Shown one piece after another: positions 9,162 through 54,455 of a DNA stretch of 64,000 nucleotides. A model generated the notes under the pieces. That model did not search any database. It was not told the DNA's origin and was given only the letters and a program-made list of their open reading frames with translations. Every line of letters starts with the position of its first letter. Position 1 is the stretch's first letter. This DNA comes from an uncultured Bacteroidales bacterium (lineage in GTDB: Bacteria; Bacteroidota; Bacteroidia; Bacteroidales; Bacteroidaceae), in assembly GCA_902787555.1 (NCBI GenBank), contig CADAGO010000002.1, positions 1 through 64,000 on the forward strand, read 5' to 3'. The position numbers were made by a program, and so were the translations under genes.

Positions 9162-10346
9162 ATGATGGACAGCAAGAAGAAAGTTTTTGTGAGTGGCTGC
9201 TATGATTTATTGCATAGTGGTCATGTGGAGTTCTTTCGTCAGGCGGCTCAGTATGGCGACTTGTACGTGGGTATTGGTTCTGATGAAACCATCCTTCATT
9301 ACAAGAATCACAAGACGGTTTATTCGGAGCAGGAGCGTCTGTTCATGGTGAAAAGCATCCGCTATGTGAAGGATGCCTTCATCAATCAAGGGCATGGTGT
9401 GATGGATTTCCTGCCGACGCTGGACATCGTGAAGCCGGATATTCTGGTTGTTAACAGTGATGGCGGAAGTGAGGAGAAACGTAGGGTCTGTGAGGAGCGC
9501 GGTATGGAATATGTGGTTCTTCAGCGTGATCCACACGAGGGACTTGCAGCGCGGAGCAGCACAGAACTGAAGAAGAGTCCGTGTCAGCTGCCTACGCGAC
9601 TTGATATCGCGGGCACTTGGATCGATCAGCCTTATGTCAGCTGCCACGCACCCGGATGGGCCATTACGATTTCGCTGGAACCTTCGTTCGAGATTCGTGA
9701 GCGTTGCGGCCTTTCCACCTCGACGCGCAACATCATCAAGAGCATCTGGCCCTATCAGCTTCCGAATATGGACCCTGAGACATTGGCGCGGCTCGTGTTC
9801 TGTTTCGAGAATCATCCGGAGCGTGAAGACGGTATCATCAGCGGTGCACAAGACGCAATCGGCATCTGTGTTCCCGGTCTTTGTCGCCATTATTATGATA
9901 ACCACTTCTGGCCGTTGCGCATTGAGACCTGTGAGGACGAGACTGTATTGCAGTGGTTGGAGAGCCATCTTTGCATGATTCCCATGGAGCCTCGCCGTCA
10001 TGGATGCTCGGTGGTAGAAGGTAAGGACATTACAAAGTCGAAGGTCGAGGCACTTGCCGCGGCTGCCGCATCGTGTTGGAACGCCATCTTGGCACGCAAT
10101 CTCGACGACTTTGCTGCAACATATCGGGCTTCGTTCGACGCACAAGTAGCGATGTTTCCCGCTATGATTCAAGGCTCTGTTCAGCAGTATATCGACCGTT
10201 ACTCGGCAATGCCCGACGTCCTGGCGTGGAAGATGCCTGGAGCGGGTGGGGGAGGATACCTTGCAATGGTGGTTACTGACACAGACGATTTCTGCCGAAG
10301 ACATCCGGAGGCAATCCCATTGAAAATAAGACGTTCGGGCATGTAG
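9162..10346 (+). CDS. Cytidylyltransferase-GHMP kinase fusion protein
   Basis: A 394-residue protein with two domains. Residues 1-140 are a cytidylyltransferase-like nucleotidyltransferase with the HxGH signature (HSGH, residues 18-21) and the SSTEL block. From about residue 143 a GHMP-type sugar kinase fold begins: LPTRLDIAG (motif 1), SGAQDAIG near 227 (motif 2 position) and PGAGGGGYL near 359 (motif 3). The kinase part resembles HddA-type heptose kinases, and the first domain resembles the nucleotidyl half of HldE. A sugar-1-kinase joined to a nucleotidyltransferase would turn a free sugar or sugar phosphate into an NDP-sugar. The real sugar is unknown. Stop and terminator overlap at 10331-10360. 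Two adjacent ATG codons begin the gene. Confidence 0.8.
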   Translation: MMDSKKKVFVSGCYDLLHSGHVEFFRQAAQYGDLYVGIGSDETILHYKNHKTVYSEQERLFMVKSIRYVKDAFINQGHGVMDFLPTLDIVKPDILVVNSDGGSEEKRRVCEERGMEYVVLQRDPHEGLAARSSTELKKSPCQLPTRLDIAGTWIDQPYVSCHAPGWAITISLEPSFEIRERCGLSTSTRNIIKSIWPYQLPNMDPETLARLVFCFENHPEREDGIISGAQDAIGICVPGLCRHYYDNHFWPLRIETCEDETVLQWLESHLCMIPMEPRRHGCSVVEGKDITKSKVEALAAAAASCWNAILARNLDDFAATYRASFDAQVAMFPAMIQGSVQQYIDRYSAMPDVLAWKMPGAGGGGYLAMVVTDTDDFCRRHPEAIPLKIRRSGM

Positions 10347-10360
10347 TCCGAACGTTTTGT
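10331..10360 (+). terminator. Hairpin overlapping the stop of the fusion gene
   Basis: ACGTTCGG (10331-10338) and CCGAACGT (10348-10355) form a perfect 8-bp stem followed by TTTTGT. The stop codon lies in the loop. Confidence 0.65.
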
Positions 10361-10447
10361 GGCCTTTTTCCTTATATTAGTTGGTTTTCTAATGGATTGA
10401 GGCTGCTGAGGAATTTAAGGGACCATAATATATATAATAAGGTATAA

Positions 10448-10490
10448 CGATTCGGGAGGATGCGCCGTTTGGCGATGTCCTCCCGAATCG
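10448..10490. terminator. Strong nested hairpin
   Basis: CGATTCGGGAGGA and TCCTCCCGAATCG form a perfect 13-bp stem, and CGCC-GTTT-GGCG adds a second stem inside the loop. It lies 20 bases past the stop of the minus-strand gene at 10510, so a terminator for that gene is likely. The stem contains the 11-mer TTCGGGAGGAT that also occurs at 30772 and 35392. Confidence 0.7.
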
Positions 10491-10509
10491 TTTCTATGAT
10501 TGCTGTGGC

Positions 10510-11307
10510 TTACCAAGGTTTGTGTTTACGGAGGAATTCATCCTTTTGTTCCTTAGAGAAACGCTGTGGGCCGAGTACACCTCCTCCATACACAAACGTG
10601 ACTTTGTCGCTATAAGGAATGTACTCTCCATGATCCAATAAGTACTGTTTTTCTTCCTGACTCTTAGGGTAATAATAAAGCTTATATGAGTACTTTCCCA
10701 TACCAACACGCCGGAACCAGATATCTGCCCATTTTTGTCCTTGAGTCATACAGATTCCTATGCATCCCATGTCGTCAAGGCATTCACGGATATGCTCAAA
10801 TTCCTCCTTGGTAAGACCAACAACCCCTCTGAGGGAATCTTGTTTCATTGCGGCATCTAAGTTCCAGTTGCCACAAGCAACAGAATCGTTTTGAGCCTGA
10901 ACATGAAAGATTGATGGTTGCCCATTATAGAATTCCAAAGTGATATATGCACTGTCTTCAAGGGCATTATCTACGTATGCCACCAGTTCGTCCATATCAT
11001 TAGCATATTTCTCGTAATGTTCAGCCATAATATCTGGATTGCATTGGCGGTTAGGACGCCCAAATACAAAGTAAGCAACGAAGAAAAGGATGTTGAAGAT
11101 GCCCCAGAAGAAAATCACCATTTGTCCTGTAGAAGCCAGTTTCCTTGACTTAAACATGAAAATGATGCTAGCGATGATGCAAACAATTAAGAAAGGGATA
11201 AGAAAAAAAAGAAACAAAAAGATTAAAGTATCATCTCCATGTAACCACAGAAGCAATATTGCAGCTGTGATGATCAGCATTGGAATAGATTTCAAGACTG
11301 TACGCAT
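10510..11307 (-). CDS. Hypothetical membrane protein
   Basis: A 265-residue protein of unknown family. The first 90 residues hold three strongly hydrophobic segments (about 8-24, 28-52 and 63-82), so it is anchored in the inner membrane by its N-terminus. The remaining 175 residues are soluble, acidic at first and then rich in Tyr and Lys, with no motif I recognise. It stands alone between a hairpin and the non-coding region upstream of the HU-like gene. It might be a sensor or stress protein, but nothing in the sequence shows this. Confidence 0.7.
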   Translation of the reverse strand: MRTVLKSIPMLIITAAILLLWLHGDDTLIFLFLFFLIPFLIVCIIASIIFMFKSRKLASTGQMVIFFWGIFNILFFVAYFVFGRPNRQCNPDIMAEHYEKYANDMDELVAYVDNALEDSAYITLEFYNGQPSIFHVQAQNDSVACGNWNLDAAMKQDSLRGVVGLTKEEFEHIRECLDDMGCIGICMTQGQKWADIWFRRVGMGKYSYKLYYYPKSQEEKQYLLDHGEYIPYSDKVTFVYGGGVLGPQRFSKEQKDEFLRKHKPW

Positions 11308-11941
11308 AGTTCTTTCAATGTATTTACCATATTAACGAGAAACTTAAGTATTTATTGTTTCATTTTACTATAATTTCGGTCAATTCCAATACAAATATCG
11401 GTGAAAAGTAATAAAATTCAAGCGTTTTCTATAGATTTCTTCCTGTGAATGCTCTGCTTAGCTGTTTTTTCATTACTTTTGCATTCGAAACATATCTTCT
11501 TCGGAAACGAGCCATCAGTTTTTCGCTATTCCATTAAATTACGACAACTAAACGATAAGCGTGATAAACGGAGGCTGCTGCTCACTCTCAATATGAGGCG
11601 TGAGCATTGGCGGTATTCGACAATATCACGCTGGGGTGTGGAATCCCCTATGGATTAGAGTTGTTTATCAGGAGTGCTCATTGCCTCTTTTTCGAAAGGA
11701 TAAATGCTACATTGAGTATGAATCCTCTAATTGATAAGGCATGAACCAAGAGGTGATCAGTATCATTGAATTCGGACATACTTATCGTCGGAATCAGTCA
11801 TACGTATCATTGAAGTCAATCATACGTATGATTCGACCAAATCATACGTATCATCGGAGCAAATCATACGTATCATCTGAACGAATGATACGGATGGCTT
11901 TATAAATCCATTATTATTAACAATTCAAATCTTTAAGAAGT
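11308..11941. other. Non-coding region upstream of the HU-like gene
   Basis: About 630 bp with no believable gene. A 69-codon frame at 11449-11658 has no family features. The first 450 bp are AT-rich and show no structure I can name. The last part carries the seven-unit phased repeat (11755-11898). Confidence 0.6.
11755..11898. repeat. Seven-unit phased array of CATACGTATCAT, 22-bp period
   Basis: Twelve-base units alternate with 10-base spacers in strict 22-bp register. Units start at 11755 (GATCAGTATCAT, degenerate), 11777 (CATACTTATCGT), 11799, 11821 (CATACGTATGAT), 11843, 11865 and 11887 (GATACGGATGGC, degenerate). The core ATACGTAT is a palindrome. Spacers are not conserved apart from a tendency to end in AAT. 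The array ends 43 bp before the HU-like start codon, where an operator or a nucleoprotein assembly site would be placed. Confidence 0.92.
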
Positions 11942-12469
11942 ATGATTTCATTGATTAAGAAAAAGGGTATTAACCCGCAAGACAAGTCCACGCTCTACTT
12001 CCCGCAATGGACACGAGTTTCCACAGTGAACGAGACGCAGTTGGCGAAGCGTATGGCTCGCGGAAGTACGTTCTCGGTGGGCGAAATCAACGGCGTGTTT
12101 GCCGATTTCCCGCAGAGCATCATCGACGAACTGCTGAACGGCAATGCAGTGAGCATTGACGGACTGGGTACGTTCAAGCTGAAGGTGAACGGCAAGAGTC
12201 AGAAGGAAAAGAAGGACGTGACAAGCGCCGGAGCAAAAATCAGCGTGGTGTTCGAGCCTGCCGCAGAACTGACCAGCCGACTGAACGATGAGCGTGAGTT
12301 CCGATTCGTTGAAGTGCCTACTGCTGAAGGTCAGCAAGATGCCGATGCTGACGAAGGCGCATCTGGCGGCGGTGGTGATACAGGTGGCGATGACGATGGT
12401 TCGACAGACTCACCACAAGACGGTGGCGGTACAACTCCTCCAAGCGGCGGTGGTGTTGACCAGAATTAG
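11942..12469 (+). CDS. HU-like DNA-binding protein with acidic glycine-rich tail
   Basis: A 175-residue protein. Residues 1-125 match the HU/IHF-type fold of the Bacteroidetes HU-like family (QLAKRMARGSTFSVGEING, then GNAVSIDGLGTFKLKV). The last 45 residues are a low-complexity tail of Gly, Asp, Ser, Thr and Pro with strong negative charge. The family binds and bends DNA and often lies near mobile or surface genes. The seven-unit phased array directly upstream makes autoregulation or a local scaffold attractive, but this is inference. The tail composition differs sharply from the basic DNA-binding part. A hairpin at 12511-12545 ends the gene. Confidence 0.88.
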   Translation: MISLIKKKGINPQDKSTLYFPQWTRVSTVNETQLAKRMARGSTFSVGEINGVFADFPQSIIDELLNGNAVSIDGLGTFKLKVNGKSQKEKKDVTSAGAKISVVFEPAAELTSRLNDEREFRFVEVPTAEGQQDADADEGASGGGGDTGGDDDGSTDSPQDGGGTTPPSGGGVDQN

Positions 12470-12510
12470 GCCTCTTTACTTTTCTTTCCCGCGGTTGTCG
12501 GTTTATACTT

Positions 12511-12549
12511 ACAAAGGATGCGAAGTTCATGCTCTGCATCCTTTGTTAT
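12511..12549. terminator. Hairpin repeat element, copy 1
   Basis: ACAAAGGATGC and GCATCCTTTGT form a perfect 11-bp stem, followed by TATTGTTAT. Bases 12512-12549 match the reverse complement of 16598-16635 at 37 of 38 positions. It probably terminates the HU-like gene. Confidence 0.75.
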
Positions 12550-12553
12550 TGTT

Positions 12554-12607
12554 ATCTGCCATCAGCATTCGGAAACAATCCCATTGAAAACCAGACGTTC
12601 AGGCATA
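12554..12607 (+). pseudogene. Remnant of the 3' end of a fusion-gene paralogue
   Basis: Read in one frame this stretch gives VICHQHSETIPLKTRRSGI, compared with DFCRRHPEAIPLKIRRSGM at the C-terminus of the cytidylyltransferase-kinase at 9162-10346. Twelve of 19 residues agree, and many codons are identical. Nothing upstream of 12554 matches that gene, and the stop codon is lost. It therefore looks like the surviving end of a second copy. Confidence 0.6.
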
Positions 12608-12659
12608 TTTGGGATTGCCTCGCTAAGTAGAGTTATATAGAAATACGTATGGGTAAGGG

Positions 12660-12694
12660 TATAGAAAAAGGAAGCCCCATGTGAGACTTCCTTT
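12660..12694 (-). terminator. Terminator of tRNA-Arg
   Basis: On the minus strand AAAGGAAG and CTTCCTTT form an 8-bp stem with a 12-base loop, followed by a T run. It lies 25 bases past the tRNA end. Confidence 0.8.
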
Positions 12695-12718
12695 AGCGTG
12701 ATAATTCATTTAAAGCGG

Positions 12719-12792
12719 TGATTCGGTTGGGATTCGAACCCAAGACCCACAGCTTAGAAGGCTGTTGCTCTATCCAGCTGAGCTACCGAACC
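12719..12792 (-). tRNA. tRNA-Arg (TCT)
   Basis: A 74-base cloverleaf. The acceptor stem GGTTCGG pairs with CCGAATC (one G-T pair), the discriminator is A, the anticodon loop CTTCTAA gives TCT (AGA codons), and the T loop has GGTTCGAATCC. CCA is not encoded. A -7 box lies at 12825-12832. Confidence 0.97.
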
Positions 12793-12824
12793 ATCATATT
12801 GTGACTTCTATTGAAAATCGGCTG

Positions 12825-12832
12825 CAAAGTTA
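12825..12832 (-). promoter_or_regulatory. -7 box of tRNA-Arg
   Basis: TAACTTTG on the minus strand, 33 bases before the tRNA 5' end. Confidence 0.65.
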
Positions 12833-12917
12833 CAAAATATTTTATAATTCATCATGCATAATGCATAATTATTTTATCAATACCTAAGTTTTTTGATGGA
12901 TTATGCCTGAAATTGGG

Positions 12918-13913
12918 TTATGTCCAGTGTAAGAAATCGGAGATGAGACTCTTAATCGACTTACGGTTGTTGATGAATGCTTCGAGCACCTTGGTTGTTG
13001 CTTTTGTCGGGATAATATCATAGTCGGCAATGGCTGCCGGAATGAAGCATGATGTTCCTTCAGGTAGAAACACTTCGTCGTTTGTGCTGCGAACGCGAAT
13101 GCGACAGTCACCGCTAAGATTCATCAGGATGAAAAAGGAATCGTACTTGACAACATTGCGATGAAAAGGCACTGATGCTTCGATGATGCGTATACTGAAA
13201 TAAGGCGTATCAAGACACTTGTCACGCTCATTCATCATCTCCTGATGCTCTGTTCGATACTCGGGATAGACGTGATAGTCGATAGCCTGCGCTGCTAATT
13301 CTGTGTGCAGTTCACGAGGCTTTCCGTCAAGCCCAGGACGGTTGTAGTCGAAGATGCGATAGGTGACGTCGCTCGATTGTTGCACTTCTGCCAGACGGAT
13401 GCCTCCGCAAATGGCATGAACACGTCCGGCTGGGAGATAGAATATGTCGCCTTGACGGACTTCATGACGGGCAAGGACATCTGTAATGGTACCGTCGGCT
13501 ACCCGCTGCTTGTATTGCTCGGGACTGACTTTTTCCTTAAACCCTGCATAGAGATACGAGCCTGGTTTGGCATCGAGCACATACCACATTTCACTCTTTC
13601 CTCTCTTCTGATGTTCGCGGTGGGCCATTTCGTCGTTGGGATGTACTTGTATGCTTAGGTCGAGCCGTGCATCAATAATCTTGGTGAGCAATGGCAGTTG
13701 GCAGTCATGCTGACGAGCTACTTCATAGCCAAGGATTTCGTGAGGCTGAAGGCTGATAATCTCTGGGAGCGGGCGTCCCGCACACGGTCCGTTCTCTATG
13801 ACAGACTCGCTGCCCGGCACAGCACTGACGGTCCAGTCTTCTGTTCCCCATACCAGCGTCTTGCGGTTCTGGGCAAACAGCATCGGATAGAGGATATTTG
13901 AATTGTGATTCAT
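12918..13913 (-). CDS. manA: Class I mannose-6-phosphate isomerase
   Basis: A 331-residue cupin-fold zinc enzyme that interconverts fructose 6-phosphate and mannose 6-phosphate, the entry to GDP-mannose and GDP-fucose. Zinc and substrate residues are visible in LSIQVHPNDEMAH and in YLPAGRVHAI. The C-terminal cupin follows (EVFLPEGTSCFIP). The start at MNHNSNILYP is chosen because the longer frame begins upstream of the -7 box at 13936-13943. It is divergent from gmd-fcl, so the two halves of the GDP-fucose pathway share one intergenic control region. Confidence 0.93.
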   Translation of the reverse strand: MNHNSNILYPMLFAQNRKTLVWGTEDWTVSAVPGSESVIENGPCAGRPLPEIISLQPHEILGYEVARQHDCQLPLLTKIIDARLDLSIQVHPNDEMAHREHQKRGKSEMWYVLDAKPGSYLYAGFKEKVSPEQYKQRVADGTITDVLARHEVRQGDIFYLPAGRVHAICGGIRLAEVQQSSDVTYRIFDYNRPGLDGKPRELHTELAAQAIDYHVYPEYRTEHQEMMNERDKCLDTPYFSIRIIEASVPFHRNVVKYDSFFILMNLSGDCRIRVRSTNDEVFLPEGTSCFIPAAIADYDIIPTKATTKVLEAFINNRKSIKSLISDFLHWT

Positions 13914-13935
13914 CGCATGAATTACTTTCGGCACG

Positions 13936-13943
13936 CAAAGATA
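13936..13943 (-). promoter_or_regulatory. -7 box of manA
   Basis: TATCTTTG on the minus strand, 22 bases before the chosen manA start. Confidence 0.7.
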
Positions 13944-13988
13944 CGAATTAATTTTAGAACATAAAAAGAAAAGGGAAGAAAAGTAAAG

Positions 13989-14043
13989 GTTTGATATTAT
14001 TATTGTCAAGTAACGAAAAAGTTTGATATTTTCGTGTCAAGTA
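13989..14043. promoter_or_regulatory. Paired operator-like repeats between manA and gmd
   Basis: GTTTGATATT...GTCAAGTA occurs twice, at 13989-14012 and 14021-14043, with starts 32 bp apart. Each unit is itself an inverted repeat of the TTGA...TCAA kind. The second unit ends 15 bp before the gmd -7 box, over the -33 region, and the first lies on the upstream side of the manA promoter. This placement fits a repressor site for both directions. Confidence 0.6.
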
Positions 14044-14094: not shown

Positions 14095-15408
14095 ATGAAA
14101 GACGAGACCATCATTAAGAACCTCAAGACGATCATGAATCGCAGGGGAATCAGCCAGCGAGAACTGGCCAGTATGATCGGGAAAGACGAGACCGTTATCT
14201 CGCGCTGGTTTGCCGGAAAAGTCGGAATCTCAGGCAGTTCGATAGGGCTGTTAGAGAAGGCATTAGGAGAAAAGATTCTCATCGTAAACGACATGAAACG
14301 TGCGCTGATTACAGGTGTTACGGGTCAGGACGGCAGCTACTTGAGTGAGTTCCTCATAGAAAAAGGATATGACGTTCATGGCATCATACGTCGCAGCAGT
14401 GTGGACTATCGTGAGCGTATCGCACATTTGGAGGGACACCCGCAGTTCCATCTTCACTATGGCGATCTAGGCGACTCGATGTCGTTGGTGAAGGTGGTTG
14501 GAATGGTTCGTCCTGATGAGATATACAATCTTGCCGCACAAAGCCATGTGCAGGTCAGCTTTGACTCGCCCGAATTTACGGCAGACATCGATGCAACCGG
14601 TGTGCTTCGTGTGCTGGAGGCTGTCCGTGCTTGCGGATTGGAGAAAACGTGTCGCATCTATCAGGCATCGACCTCGGAGCTGTATGGCAAAGTGGAAGAA
14701 GTGCCCCAGAACGAGAACACGCCGTTCCACCCCTACTCACCATACGCGGTGGCGAAACTCTATGGCTTCTGGATTGTCAAGGAGTATCGCGAGGCGTACA
14801 ACATGTTCTGCTGTTCGGGCATCCTCTTCAATCACGAGAGCGAACGACGAGGAGAAACCTTTGTGACACGTAAGATAACGCTGGCTGCTGCACGCATAGC
14901 ACAAGGGATGCAAACGTGTCTGTATCTGGGCAATCTGTCGTCGTTGCGTGACTGGGGTTATGCGAAGGATTATGTGGAATGTATGTGGCTCATGCTGCAG
15001 AACAATAAGCCTGAGGATTATGTCATAGCGACGGGTGTGCAGCACAGTGTCCGTGAGTTTGCCTACTACGCATTCAAGCATGTGGGCATCGAGATTGAGT
15101 TCCGTGGCGAAGGACTACGTGAGGTAGGTGTATGTGTCAAGGTGCGTGGCAATGTCAGCAAGGAACTAGTGGGCAAGGAACTGATACGTGTGAGCGAGGA
15201 TTTCTACCGCCCGACCGATGTAGTGAATCTTTGGGGCGACCCCACGAAAGCAAAAGCGAAACTGGGTTGGAATCCGTCGAAGACTTCATTTGAGGACCTG
15301 GTGAAAATCATGGTGGAAAGCGACATGGCGAAGGTTGCCGGCGAGGGAATTGCAGCGAAAGTACGAACGAATCTAGCTGAATATCTTGAGAAAGGAATTG
15401 TGAAATAA
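14095..15408 (+). CDS. gmd: GDP-mannose 4,6-dehydratase with N-terminal HTH domain
   Basis: A 437-residue protein. Residues 1-66 form a Cro/CI-type helix-turn-helix ([20 protein letters not shown], about 20-39). From Met67 a complete GMD begins: nucleotide fold [13 protein letters not shown], active-site Thr/Glu region STSELYG, and the YSPYAVAK Tyr-Lys pair. GMD makes GDP-4-keto-6-deoxymannose, the substrate of Fcl, which is encoded 11 bp downstream. GMD normally lacks any DNA-binding domain. The open frame joins both parts and a promoter sits just upstream of the HTH. An internal start at 14293 for GMD alone cannot be excluded, though no ribosome-binding signal is seen there. Confidence 0.9.
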
Positions 15409-29558: not shown

Positions 29559-30476
29559 TTATAATGATTCCTCTCTCCTCTTCCCTCTCATCTCACTCAA
29601 ATACATCCCCGTCAGGATGAGCAGGGTGCCGATGATGAAATAGACGGTGATATGTTCCGACAGAATCAACCAGGCAAAGATGACGGTAGTCACAGGATTG
29701 AAATACACATAGTTGGTCACCACTACGGCTCCCAGTTTCTTCATCACCCAGTTCCACGCCAGGAAGCAGAGCATCGAAGCTACACAGCCCAGGAACAGCA
29801 GGTTGAGCACTGTGGGCAGTCGCAGGGTGAACAGCGATGGGCCGAAGATACTTGCTTCGTCAGGGTTTATCATAAAATAAGGAATCATCGACAGCAATCC
29901 GTAGAAAAACACCTTTCGGGTGATGAATAGCGTGTCATAGCGTCGTGTGGCTGGAATCATCAGCAGCGAATACAAAGCCCAGCATAGGCAGGCAGCAAAT
30001 GCCAGCGTGTCGCCCAAAGGTGACAGATGGAGCACAAAACGCCCGTTGAGCACCACGATGACGACTCCTACGGCTGCTATCAGCGTTCCTGCTATCTGGA
30101 TGCCATGCAGTCGCTCCGAGCGGTAAAACAAGGCAATCAGCAGGGCTGCAAATAGCGGACAGAGACAGACGATGAGCGAGGTGTTGGTTGTCGTTGTATA
30201 AATCATCGCGCTGTTCTCCGTCAGGAAATACAGTGAGCCGCCTGTCACTCCCAAGCTCGCCATCAGCAGCTCGTGCTTCCACGATGAAGCCATGAGCCTG
30301 AAACGCTTGCAAGTGAGCGAGTAAGCCAGCAGTAGTACATACGCTACGATGAAGCGCAACACAAATATCTGTGCAGCCGTAAGCCCGTCGTTCAACAGCA
30401 GTTTCGTAAAGACAAACGTAACACCCCAAACTGAAACAACCAGGAATGCCACGATATGATACAGCAACCTATCCAT
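29559..30476 (-). CDS. EamA (DMT superfamily) transporter
   Basis: A 305-residue inner membrane protein with about ten hydrophobic helices arranged as two EamA repeats (first half beginning AFLVVSVWGVTFVFTKLLL, second half near GDTLAFAACLCWALYSL). These transporters export or import small metabolites; the substrate is unknown. It is a single gene with its own -7 box (30505-30512). Confidence 0.92.
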   Translation of the reverse strand: MDRLLYHIVAFLVVSVWGVTFVFTKLLLNDGLTAAQIFVLRFIVAYVLLLAYSLTCKRFRLMASSWKHELLMASLGVTGGSLYFLTENSAMIYTTTTNTSLIVCLCPLFAALLIALFYRSERLHGIQIAGTLIAAVGVVIVVLNGRFVLHLSPLGDTLAFAACLCWALYSLLMIPATRRYDTLFITRKVFFYGLLSMIPYFMINPDEASIFGPSLFTLRLPTVLNLLFLGCVASMLCFLAWNWVMKKLGAVVVTNYVYFNPVTTVIFAWLILSEHITVYFIIGTLLILTGMYLSEMRGKRREESL

Positions 30477-30512: not shown

Positions 30513-30598
30513 CGGCTTTTCTTTCAATTGGCAATCAATACTGACAATACTTTTACCCTTTTGGCAAAACCTTTCGGTAAACACTCTTTTTTGTTACT

Positions 30599-30655
30599 AT
30601 TAATAGTAGCAATTGCGGGCATTAATAGTAGCACCTTTTATTATTAATAGGAGCA
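30599..30655. repeat. Phased array ATTAATAGTAGCA, 22-bp period
   Basis: ATTAATAGTAGCA lies at 30599-30611 and 30621-30633, and ATTAATAGGAGCA at 30643-30655; starts are exactly 22 bp apart. The core ACTATTAATAGT of the first unit is a perfect palindrome. Spacers differ. It sits in the 435-bp gap between the divergent EamA and 1233-residue-protein genes, about 80 bp upstream of the -33 element of the latter. Confidence 0.85.
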
Positions 30656-52907: not shown

Positions 52908-54455
52908 TTATGTCCGCGCAGCCGTCCATCCGCTCGGGATGCCGTTTGCTTTGTTTTTCGGCCATGCTGCACCTGGTGCTGCTGTGAAGGTTCCTTTTGC
53001 TGCAACGTCTTTGAGCCAATCTTTAGTGCAATCAGTTGCACTGATATTTGTGGCCATACATTTCACGCTATTCAGGAGCGAGCAACCATTGAACATTTCG
53101 TAGTAGCAATAATCTGTAAGCGTTGTAGCAGGCAGGTCAGGAGCAGTTGTCAGGTTGCTGCAGCCATTGAACATAGAACCATAGCAAAAAGTTGCCAATG
53201 TAGTAGCAGACAGGACAGGAGCCTTCGTCATGCTGGTGCAGCCGCTGAACATACCGGCATAGCAGTAATCTCCAAGCGTTGTAGCAGGCAGGGCAGGAGC
53301 TGCTGTCAGGCTAGTACAGTTTTGAAACATATAGACATAGCAATAATCTGTAATCGTCGTAGAAGGCAGGGCAGGAGCCTTTGTCAGACTAGTGCAGTTT
53401 TTAAACATTTCTTGATAGCAGCTTTTTGCCAGTGTTGTAGCAGGCAGGTCGGGGGCCGTTGTCAGACCTGTGCAACTATAGAACATATCGCTATAGCATC
53501 CAAAAGCTAGATTCTTGGCAGGCAGGGCAGGGGCTGCTGTCAGGCTGGCACATTCAGCAAACATAGAGCTATAGCAATTAATAGCCAGATTCTCTGCAGG
53601 CAGTTCGGGAGCCTTCGTCAGGCTGGATTGTTTGAACATTTCTTGATAGCAACTTTCTGCAAGCGAATCTGCAGGTAGGACGGGAGCCGTCGTTAGCTCC
53701 GTGCAGCCGTAAAACATGCCCATATAGCAGCGGGATTTCAACGTCGTAACAGGCAGGTCGGGAACCGTTGTTAGGCTAGTGCATTTATAGAACATAGCTC
53801 TATAGCAACTTTCTGCAAGCGTTGTAGCAGGCAGTTCGGGAGCTGTTGTCAGACCGGTTTTTTCGAACATTTCCTCATAACAACTTTTTGCCAAAGTCTC
53901 AGCAGGCAGTTCGGGAGCCTCTGTCAGGCTAGTGCAATTATAGAACATGCCACTATAGCACGATTCGGTCAGCGTCGTAGCGGGCAGAACCAGCGGATTT
54001 TCGGCATGGTTCAGAATATGCGCGTTTTCCTTGAATAGTCCATAGAACGCATAATCTGCTGACAGGCTCGTAAGTTTTGCAAAGCCGGTTGATTGAATCA
54101 GGCTCATGACATTGCCATAGATGTAACAGTCGGCAGAGCAGGAGAATTTGCTGTAATCGGTATTTTTGGCAGCATAGGTAGTATTGTCGCCACGGAACAT
54201 CACCTTGTCACCAGCGGCTGCAAGTGTGATTTCCTGCCCCGAAGTGTAGTTCTCCCATGTAGAACCATCGGTGCTGTATTGTATATTACCAGTCGTTGTG
54301 CTAGCTAGCGTGAATGACACCTTGGCTCCAGCATCTTTAGCCTCAAACGTGAGCGGAGCATCTAGATCGCTCGAACAGCTAATCATCATAGCACCCACCA
54401 ATGCAAAAACTGCCATTCTCAGAAATTTCATACTCATTTTCATTTTCATTTTCAT
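52908..54455 (-). CDS. Leucine-rich-repeat lipoprotein (BspA-like)
   Basis: A 515-residue lipoprotein with lipobox Cys27 (MMISC). After a beta domain (about 30-140) come about twelve repeats of 24-26 residues of the form LPATTLAESCYxxMFxxCTS followed by LTxAP. They end near residue 465, and an ordinary C-terminal segment follows. The repeat has two Cys and a MF pair, a variant of the BspA-type surface repeat, used for adhesion in oral and gut Bacteroidota. The start lies in a run of in-frame ATG codons (ATGAAA units), so the exact first Met is uncertain. It has a -7 box at 54530-54537. Confidence 0.85.
   Translation of the reverse strand: MKMKMKMSMKFLRMAVFALVGAMMISCSSDLDAPLTFEAKDAGAKVSFTLASTTTGNIQYSTDGSTWENYTSGQEITLAAAGDKVMFRGDNTTYAAKNTDYSKFSCSADCYIYGNVMSLIQSTGFAKLTSLSADYAFYGLFKENAHILNHAENPLVLPATTLTESCYSGMFYNCTSLTEAPELPAETLAKSCYEEMFEKTGLTTAPELPATTLAESCYRAMFYKCTSLTTVPDLPVTTLKSRCYMGMFYGCTELTTAPVLPADSLAESCYQEMFKQSSLTKAPELPAENLAINCYSSMFAECASLTAAPALPAKNLAFGCYSDMFYSCTGLTTAPDLPATTLAKSCYQEMFKNCTSLTKAPALPSTTITDYCYVYMFQNCTSLTAAPALPATTLGDYCYAGMFSGCTSMTKAPVLSATTLATFCYGSMFNGCSNLTTAPDLPATTLTDYCYYEMFNGCSLLNSVKCMATNISATDCTKDWLKDVAAKGTFTAAPGAAWPKNKANGIPSGWTAART
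54426..54455 (-). repeat. Hexamer run of in-frame start codons
   Basis: On the minus strand ATGAAA occurs three times in a row, then ATGAGT and ATGAAA. Each gives an in-frame ATG at the 5' end of the lipoprotein gene. Units are six bases, so unit loss or gain would keep the frame and only change the number of starts. Confidence 0.6.

Follow-up and report, generated by a model that had tools for sequence, protein, structure and literature searches.

The window analysed here is a 64,000-nucleotide stretch of contig CADAGO010000002.1 from an uncultured Bacteroidales bacterium (assembly GCA_902787555.1). On its forward strand lies a phased array of 22-bp units (11755–11898), built of the core ATACGTAT and a spacer close to YGGARYNAAT, and this array is followed by the gene of an HU-HIG protein (11942–12469). 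The unit starts (11755, 11777, 11799, 11821, 11843, 11865 and 11887) are exactly 22 bp apart, and units 1 to 7 have 3, 2, 0, 1, 0, 0 and 5 mismatches to CATACGTATCAT. The exact register described in the initial annotation is borne out, but its count of seven is generous, because exact cores occur in only four units (at 11800, 11822, 11844 and 11866) and two to three are decayed: the cores of units 2 and 7 have one base changed each (ATACTTAT at 11778 and ATACGGAT at 11888), and unit 1, with three mismatches, is doubtful. Pairs of ATACGTAT offset by 22 bp occur three times in the window, versus none in 100 dinucleotide shuffles of it. A dyad is present as first noted, but its symmetric part is ATACGTAT and not the whole 12-mer. 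The description of the 10-bp spacers as unconserved does not hold: in six aligned array stretches they converge on YGGARYNAAT, with several invariant positions, so that the repeat unit is the full 22 bp with a symmetric core.

Other repeats are present in the window. A second 22-bp-phased palindrome array, with three copies of TTGAATCGATTCAA, lies at 118–187 in the gap before an ORF starting near 483; three CTATTAAT-bearing units at 22-bp spacing are found on the minus strand at approximately 30540–30640, upstream of a transporter-like ORF (29559–30476); and 78-bp tandem repeats occur in approximately 11 copies at 53091–53960.

The HU-HIG gene starts 43 bp beyond the array (array end 11898, ORF start 11942), as initially reported, and encodes 175 residues with a Gly/Asp/Pro-rich tail. 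The HU-like character of its product is confirmed by PF18291 (E = 7e-16, 58.8 bits, curated cut-off 26.2) and TIGR01201 (74.4 bits, cut-off 68.6), making it a member of the HU-HIG/HU_rel family and the proposed reader of the array. The AlphaFold2 model is of low confidence (mean pLDDT 47.9) and too poor to use, and a PDB sequence search with a five-sequence profile gave no match at E ≤ 0.01. The phage DNA-binding protein family phrog_379 is a weak match (3.9e-8). A viral origin is without support, since the viral contig set (viral_contigs) yielded 0 exact matches of the two-core pattern and, by tblastn, no relative of the window protein.

Directly after the last unit, TATAAA (11901–11906, forward strand) is a possible but weak promoter element in AT-rich surroundings; judged by eye, it follows the array in 7 of 14 orthologue loci. 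Upstream of the array, a conserved block on the same strand (11380–11754) is shared with the nearest relative, G010, but does not align with G286; identity to G010 is 91% across 11380–12468. The block contains TACTTTTG (11474–11481, forward strand), a candidate -7 box judging by the consensus. It has no Rfam match above the gathering score and is possibly a leader or small RNA. Over 10000–14000, the Rfam gathering score is reached by a tRNA alone. The neighbours at 9–16 kb are, by eye, the HU-HIG gene, a tRNA and metabolic- or membrane-looking ORFs; family-library searches covered the HU-HIG protein, and all other gene names used here were assigned by eye from translations. One such ORF (14095–15408) appears by eye to fuse an HTH-like N-terminus in frame to a GDP-mannose-dehydratase-like enzyme, and a locus in G014 (L109) has the same start.

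Phased arrays before HU-HIG genes

Relatives of the window protein at E ≤ 1e-20 occur in 6 of 399 genomes of the family. Five of these 6 are among the 16 genomes that match a profile of the array (see below), an overlap with a hypergeometric probability of 3e-7 that is not independent, as the HU-leader arrays are counted in. In the sixth, G062, the frame is truncated, and the upstream stretch examined shows no array. A scan of genome_contigs, seeded by two peptide patterns and thus confined to close relatives, returned 16 loci (13 full-length orthologues and 3 fragments), all from Bacteroidales MAGs and most of ruminant origin where an origin is stated. Together with the window, this gives 14 full-length loci (window and L159–L171) in 12 genomes.

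A phased array of 22 or 23 bp precedes the gene in all 14 of these full-length loci, with the last clear core starting 52 to 79 bp before the ATG. Eight of them (window and L159–L165) have strict 22-bp steps and a last core start at 52 to 56 bp; in L166, L168, L169 and L171 the steps are 23 bp and the core is CATGTATCATG, in most cases accompanied by CATGANCATG-like neighbours; and L167 and L170 have ATGCGCAT/ATGCGTAT cores, L170 with two clear units only. Of the fragments, L172 keeps the array, and none was seen at L173 and L174. An alignment of G000 with G286 covers the array, unit by unit, and the gene, but does not extend into the flanks. The initial annotation had named a lack of conserved spacing or core in relatives as part of what would refute it; the spacing is kept, but the core varies by clade (ATACGTAT, ATGCGCAT or CATGTATCATG).

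The close paralogues L160 and L165, both from one MAG (RGIG5177), show how cores differ within a genome. Five of their aligned units differ in the core, each at positions 3 and 6 and nowhere else, which makes 10 core differences in all (position 6 of the last unit changes to G, not C); the sixth, outermost unit has ATGCGCAT in both. The remaining 70 positions of the five units show 22 differences, 1 and 2 per 14 positions in units 1 and 3 and 6 to 7 per 14 in units 2, 4 and 5. Because the spacers of units 1 and 3 are nearly unchanged, replacement of whole units is unlikely. The two proteins have ten differences in their first 134 residues, including residues 14–18, with two in the presumed arm. 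Residues 14–18 fail as the core determinant, given that L164 has the DKST residues of the ATACGTAT group yet carries ATGCGCAT/ATCCGCAT cores. A single shared trans-acting reader would not be expected to select for two cores within one cell, although L160 and L165 possibly represent two strains mixed in one MAG.

Five further paralogues, from G059, are 86% to 91% identical and have five distinct 21-bp arrays. Array sequences vary by gene across HU-HIG genes, with examples being GTTCARAGNCTTGGAAC (L013), TTGTGGCACAA (L256), TATTTCA-TTTGAAATA (L253) and CTGTCAGCTGACAG (L242). For the L013 site, a search of its own genome at up to 2 mismatches found its three phased sites, one reverse reading of these and one other place; the reversed pattern used as control gave 4 matches, so there are no dispersed copies beyond control level.

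To see how general upstream periodicity is, we analysed the 250 bp upstream of HU-HIG genes picked by protein similarity. Among 54 genes from the own family, periods of 19–24 bp reached p ≤ 0.01 in 26, compared to 3 for 13–18 bp and 4 for 25–30 bp; 22 of the 54 had z ≥ 4 at 19–24 bp, as counted from rounded z values. Nineteen of the 54 come from genomes selected for holding arrays, and two, the window gene and L041, belong to its clade. Excluded were contig-edge loci (L042, L179 and L180), duplicates (L040, L055 and L066), clade orthologues (L155, L175 and L176), a fragment (L187), genes with internal stops (L191 and L197) and matches without a locus; L178, whose array lies beyond the 250-bp limit, was counted as negative. 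A second set of 60 genes (E below approximately 1e-15) was taken from six more HU-HIG-rich genomes of the order, of which five belong to other families, leaving out G432:C27, G018:C14, G428:C149 (partial) and G428:C26 and C8 (internal stops). Here, p ≤ 0.01 was obtained for 28 genes at 19–24 bp, 3 at 13–18 bp and 1 at 25–30 bp, and z ≥ 4 for 25, 1 and 0 genes, respectively. The own-family genome in this set, G018, accounts for 13 of the 60 genes, 7 of them with z ≥ 4; outside the family the count is 18 of 47.

Among 179 other genes from the sequences under analysis, serving as control, 14 had p ≤ 0.01 and 8 had z ≥ 4; for the 81 controls whose intergenic space measures 120 bp or more, the numbers were 7 and 5. 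Fisher tests on z ≥ 4 gave 3e-10 (54 genes) and 4e-11 (60 genes) against all controls, and 1e-6 and 4e-7 against the 81, values that are not independent because the tested HU-HIG genes are related to each other. Dyad symmetry was assessed for 48 HU-HIG arrays (at least 28 matches in 44) and reached p ≤ 0.05 in 28 and p ≤ 0.01 in 15. The periodicity test detected no array at roughly half of the HU-HIG genes, among them the short housekeeping-type HUs L017, L018 and L019; a conserved HU-HIG type of approximately 130 residues is borderline.

Arrays at other sites and alternative readings

A search for the two-unit pattern with up to 3 mismatches gave three places in the genome from which the window comes: the window itself, a site on contig C4 between trpG- and trpD-like genes, and a site on C1 flanked by anti-sigma/sigma-like genes and a secreted-enzyme-like gene (names by eye), where ATGCGCAT and ATACGTAT cores share one common register. 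G010 keeps the HU array and also has one at the anti-sigma-like locus; its trpG/trpD-like junction has none. The junction before the trpD-like gene (L074 and L072) seems repeat-prone, with other tandem repeats in G016 and a short AACATTG repeat in G010.

A sequence-only profile built from four units, with filters that lose weak matches, found arrays in 16 of the 399 family genomes at E ≤ 1e-4. From its matches we took up a subset of 36 arrays located elsewhere than at the HU orthologue and classed 35 by their neighbouring ORFs (L205 has no flank; L010, L037 and L038 are one locus in three genomes): 19 lie between tandem, 12 between convergent and 4 between divergent ORFs. One (L153) is located between murD- and ftsW-like genes, named by eye. 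Avoidance of divergent promoters was considered and set aside: 4 of the 35 arrays do lie between divergent ORFs, and the surplus of convergent sites relative to control lacks significance (Fisher 0.08). Dispersed arrays carry ATACGTAT, ATGCGCAT or mixed cores, ATACGCAT being one example, and perfect symmetry is therefore not absolute. The arrays at the trpG/trpD-like junction, the anti-sigma-like locus and the other sites rule out a feature that belongs purely to HU leaders. Moreover, 11 of the 16 array genomes (62% to 95% complete) have no orthologue at E ≤ 1e-20, which argues against a strict regulon. At E ≤ 1e-5, other HU-HIG matches were obtained in eight of these 11, several of them with arrays of their own that differ in sequence. 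The ATACGTAT-type arrays found elsewhere may represent additional targets, relics, or repeats that are spreading.

One could view the array as a dispersed intergenic minisatellite of the BrickBuilt type, spreading selfishly or through recombination, that some HU-HIG leaders hold by chance. The three arrays in the own genome, of which the trpG/trpD-like one has no counterpart at that junction in the closest relative, would fit such mobility, as would the varying number of clear units at the anti-sigma-like locus (five in G010 and four in G006); BrickBuilt elements are likewise intergenic, imperfect, 23 nt long and strain-variable in number (PMC4596501). Spread of one repeat would not, however, be expected to produce the same period in unrelated sequences before other HU-HIG genes, and in HU orthologues from different genera the array remains just upstream of the gene even as its core varies, so we consider this explanation unlikely. 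A centromere-like or nucleoid-anchoring role, in which the protein would cover the dispersed arrays as well as its own and so organise or partition DNA, with autoregulation as a by-product, has plasmid ParR/parC as its model. The protein does belong to the HU family, and arrays at convergent and apparently intra-operon places would be unlikely for an operator; yet most array genomes (the 11 of 16) lack a close orthologue and the L013 site has no dispersed copies beyond control level, and a role of this kind seems to us distinctly improbable.

The array might also act as RNA, with the dyads in a 5′ leader forming hairpins bound by the HU-HIG protein; HU binds some RNAs. The motif TAnnTTTG, a known -7 box, was looked for within 120 bp of 59 arrays and lies 8 to 34 bp before 13 of them, in line with transcription through the array, but it occurs upstream of 19 and downstream of 9 (antisense rate 0.11 per 120 bp), so that the position of the array relative to the promoter is not uniform; the window clade is mostly without the motif nearby. 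Of five arrays tried, three have sense strands that fold below shuffles (z = -3.1, -7.4 and -5.9), but the other two are unremarkable (-0.3 and -1.9) and the antisense strands fold equally (-4.4, -4.7, -2.7, -5.0 and -1.9). Pairings vary between orthologues without a fold common to the five arrays, a single unit offers no loop space when its palindrome is contiguous, as in ATACGTAT, and a period of 20 to 23 bp over unrelated sequences suits DNA geometry. RNA hairpins were therefore rejected as the main reading and are very improbable; the period near two helical turns despite unrelated sequences, together with the lack of a common RNA fold, favours DNA.

A putative private operator and its known counterparts

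Judging from sequence comparison, we think that the array probably serves the HU-HIG protein of the adjacent downstream gene as a private operator with phased sites. This is favoured because all 14 full-length orthologue loci keep an array, many other HU-HIG genes have their own, and the cores of one paralogue pair shift in concert. The initial proposal of an operator-like array of phased dimer sites, with the HU-like protein as an obvious candidate reader, is thus partly supported by the comparative evidence; that arrays of this sequence also occur at non-HU sites had escaped it. HU-HIG dimers would bind the dyads, one unit per dimer; as a spacing of approximately two helical turns puts the units on one face of the DNA, the dimers could bind side by side, and would then bend or wrap the leader. 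The protein would thereby control its own expression, probably limiting it. After duplication, the specificities of protein and array would change together, giving each HU-HIG paralogue its own address. Binding by the encoded protein, cooperativity and the sign of regulation are parts of this operator reading that we infer.

A broader and more tentative proposal, on which we would not yet insist, is that the expanded HU-like proteins of Bacteroidales may be a set of architectural proteins with sequence specificity, each of them matched to a private dyad array phased at 20 to 23 bp before its own gene. Protein and array would co-diversify after duplication, yielding many orthogonal, self-recognising switches within one cell, some of which might have further chromosomal arrays.

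Several known systems resemble this arrangement. Plasmid R6K has 22-bp iterons and an autoregulated initiator, and such iterons are, like the window array, phased 22-bp repeats beside the gene of their reader, here a presumed one. Unlike plasmid iterons, the units of the window array have dyad cores, and the replication initiator that would mark an iteron origin was not recognised by eye among the array neighbours at 9–16 kb. ParR/parC and the omega heptads are autoregulated centromere arrays that likewise precede the gene of their binding protein (presumed in our case), but the window protein is of another family and no motor gene was recognised by eye beside it. HU itself is an architectural protein with little sequence preference. 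A 2017 study by Burroughs et al. is said to deal with HU-HIG.

The nearest published look-alike that we found is BrickBuilt of Porphyromonas gingivalis, likened here by its description rather than by unit sequence: it is reported to comprise 19 intergenic elements with imperfect 23-nt tandem units (PMC4596501; see also PMC5771137 and PMC10969869). One element, BrickBuilt_14, lies between PGN_0871 (minus strand) and PGN_0872 (plus strand), the latter encoding a PF00216 DNA-binding protein, so that tandem, imperfect, intergenic units upstream of an HU-type gene are shared with the window array (PMC4596501). Unlike the window array, BrickBuilt is described there with a leader and tail, terminal inverted repeats and up to 22.8 units (PMC4596501). 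In the literature searched, from which most subscription papers were absent, we came across no account of private phased arrays preceding HU-HIG genes.

A widespread HU-like family thus appears to have acquired private, changing DNA addresses. The gene–array pairs, some with proteins that are 86% to 91% identical, make up a test set for the gain of specificity in HU-fold proteins and are a possible source of orthogonal DNA-binding parts. Tandem 22- or 23-bp repeats of Bacteroidales that have been described as minisatellites, such as BrickBuilt, might thereby be given a role.
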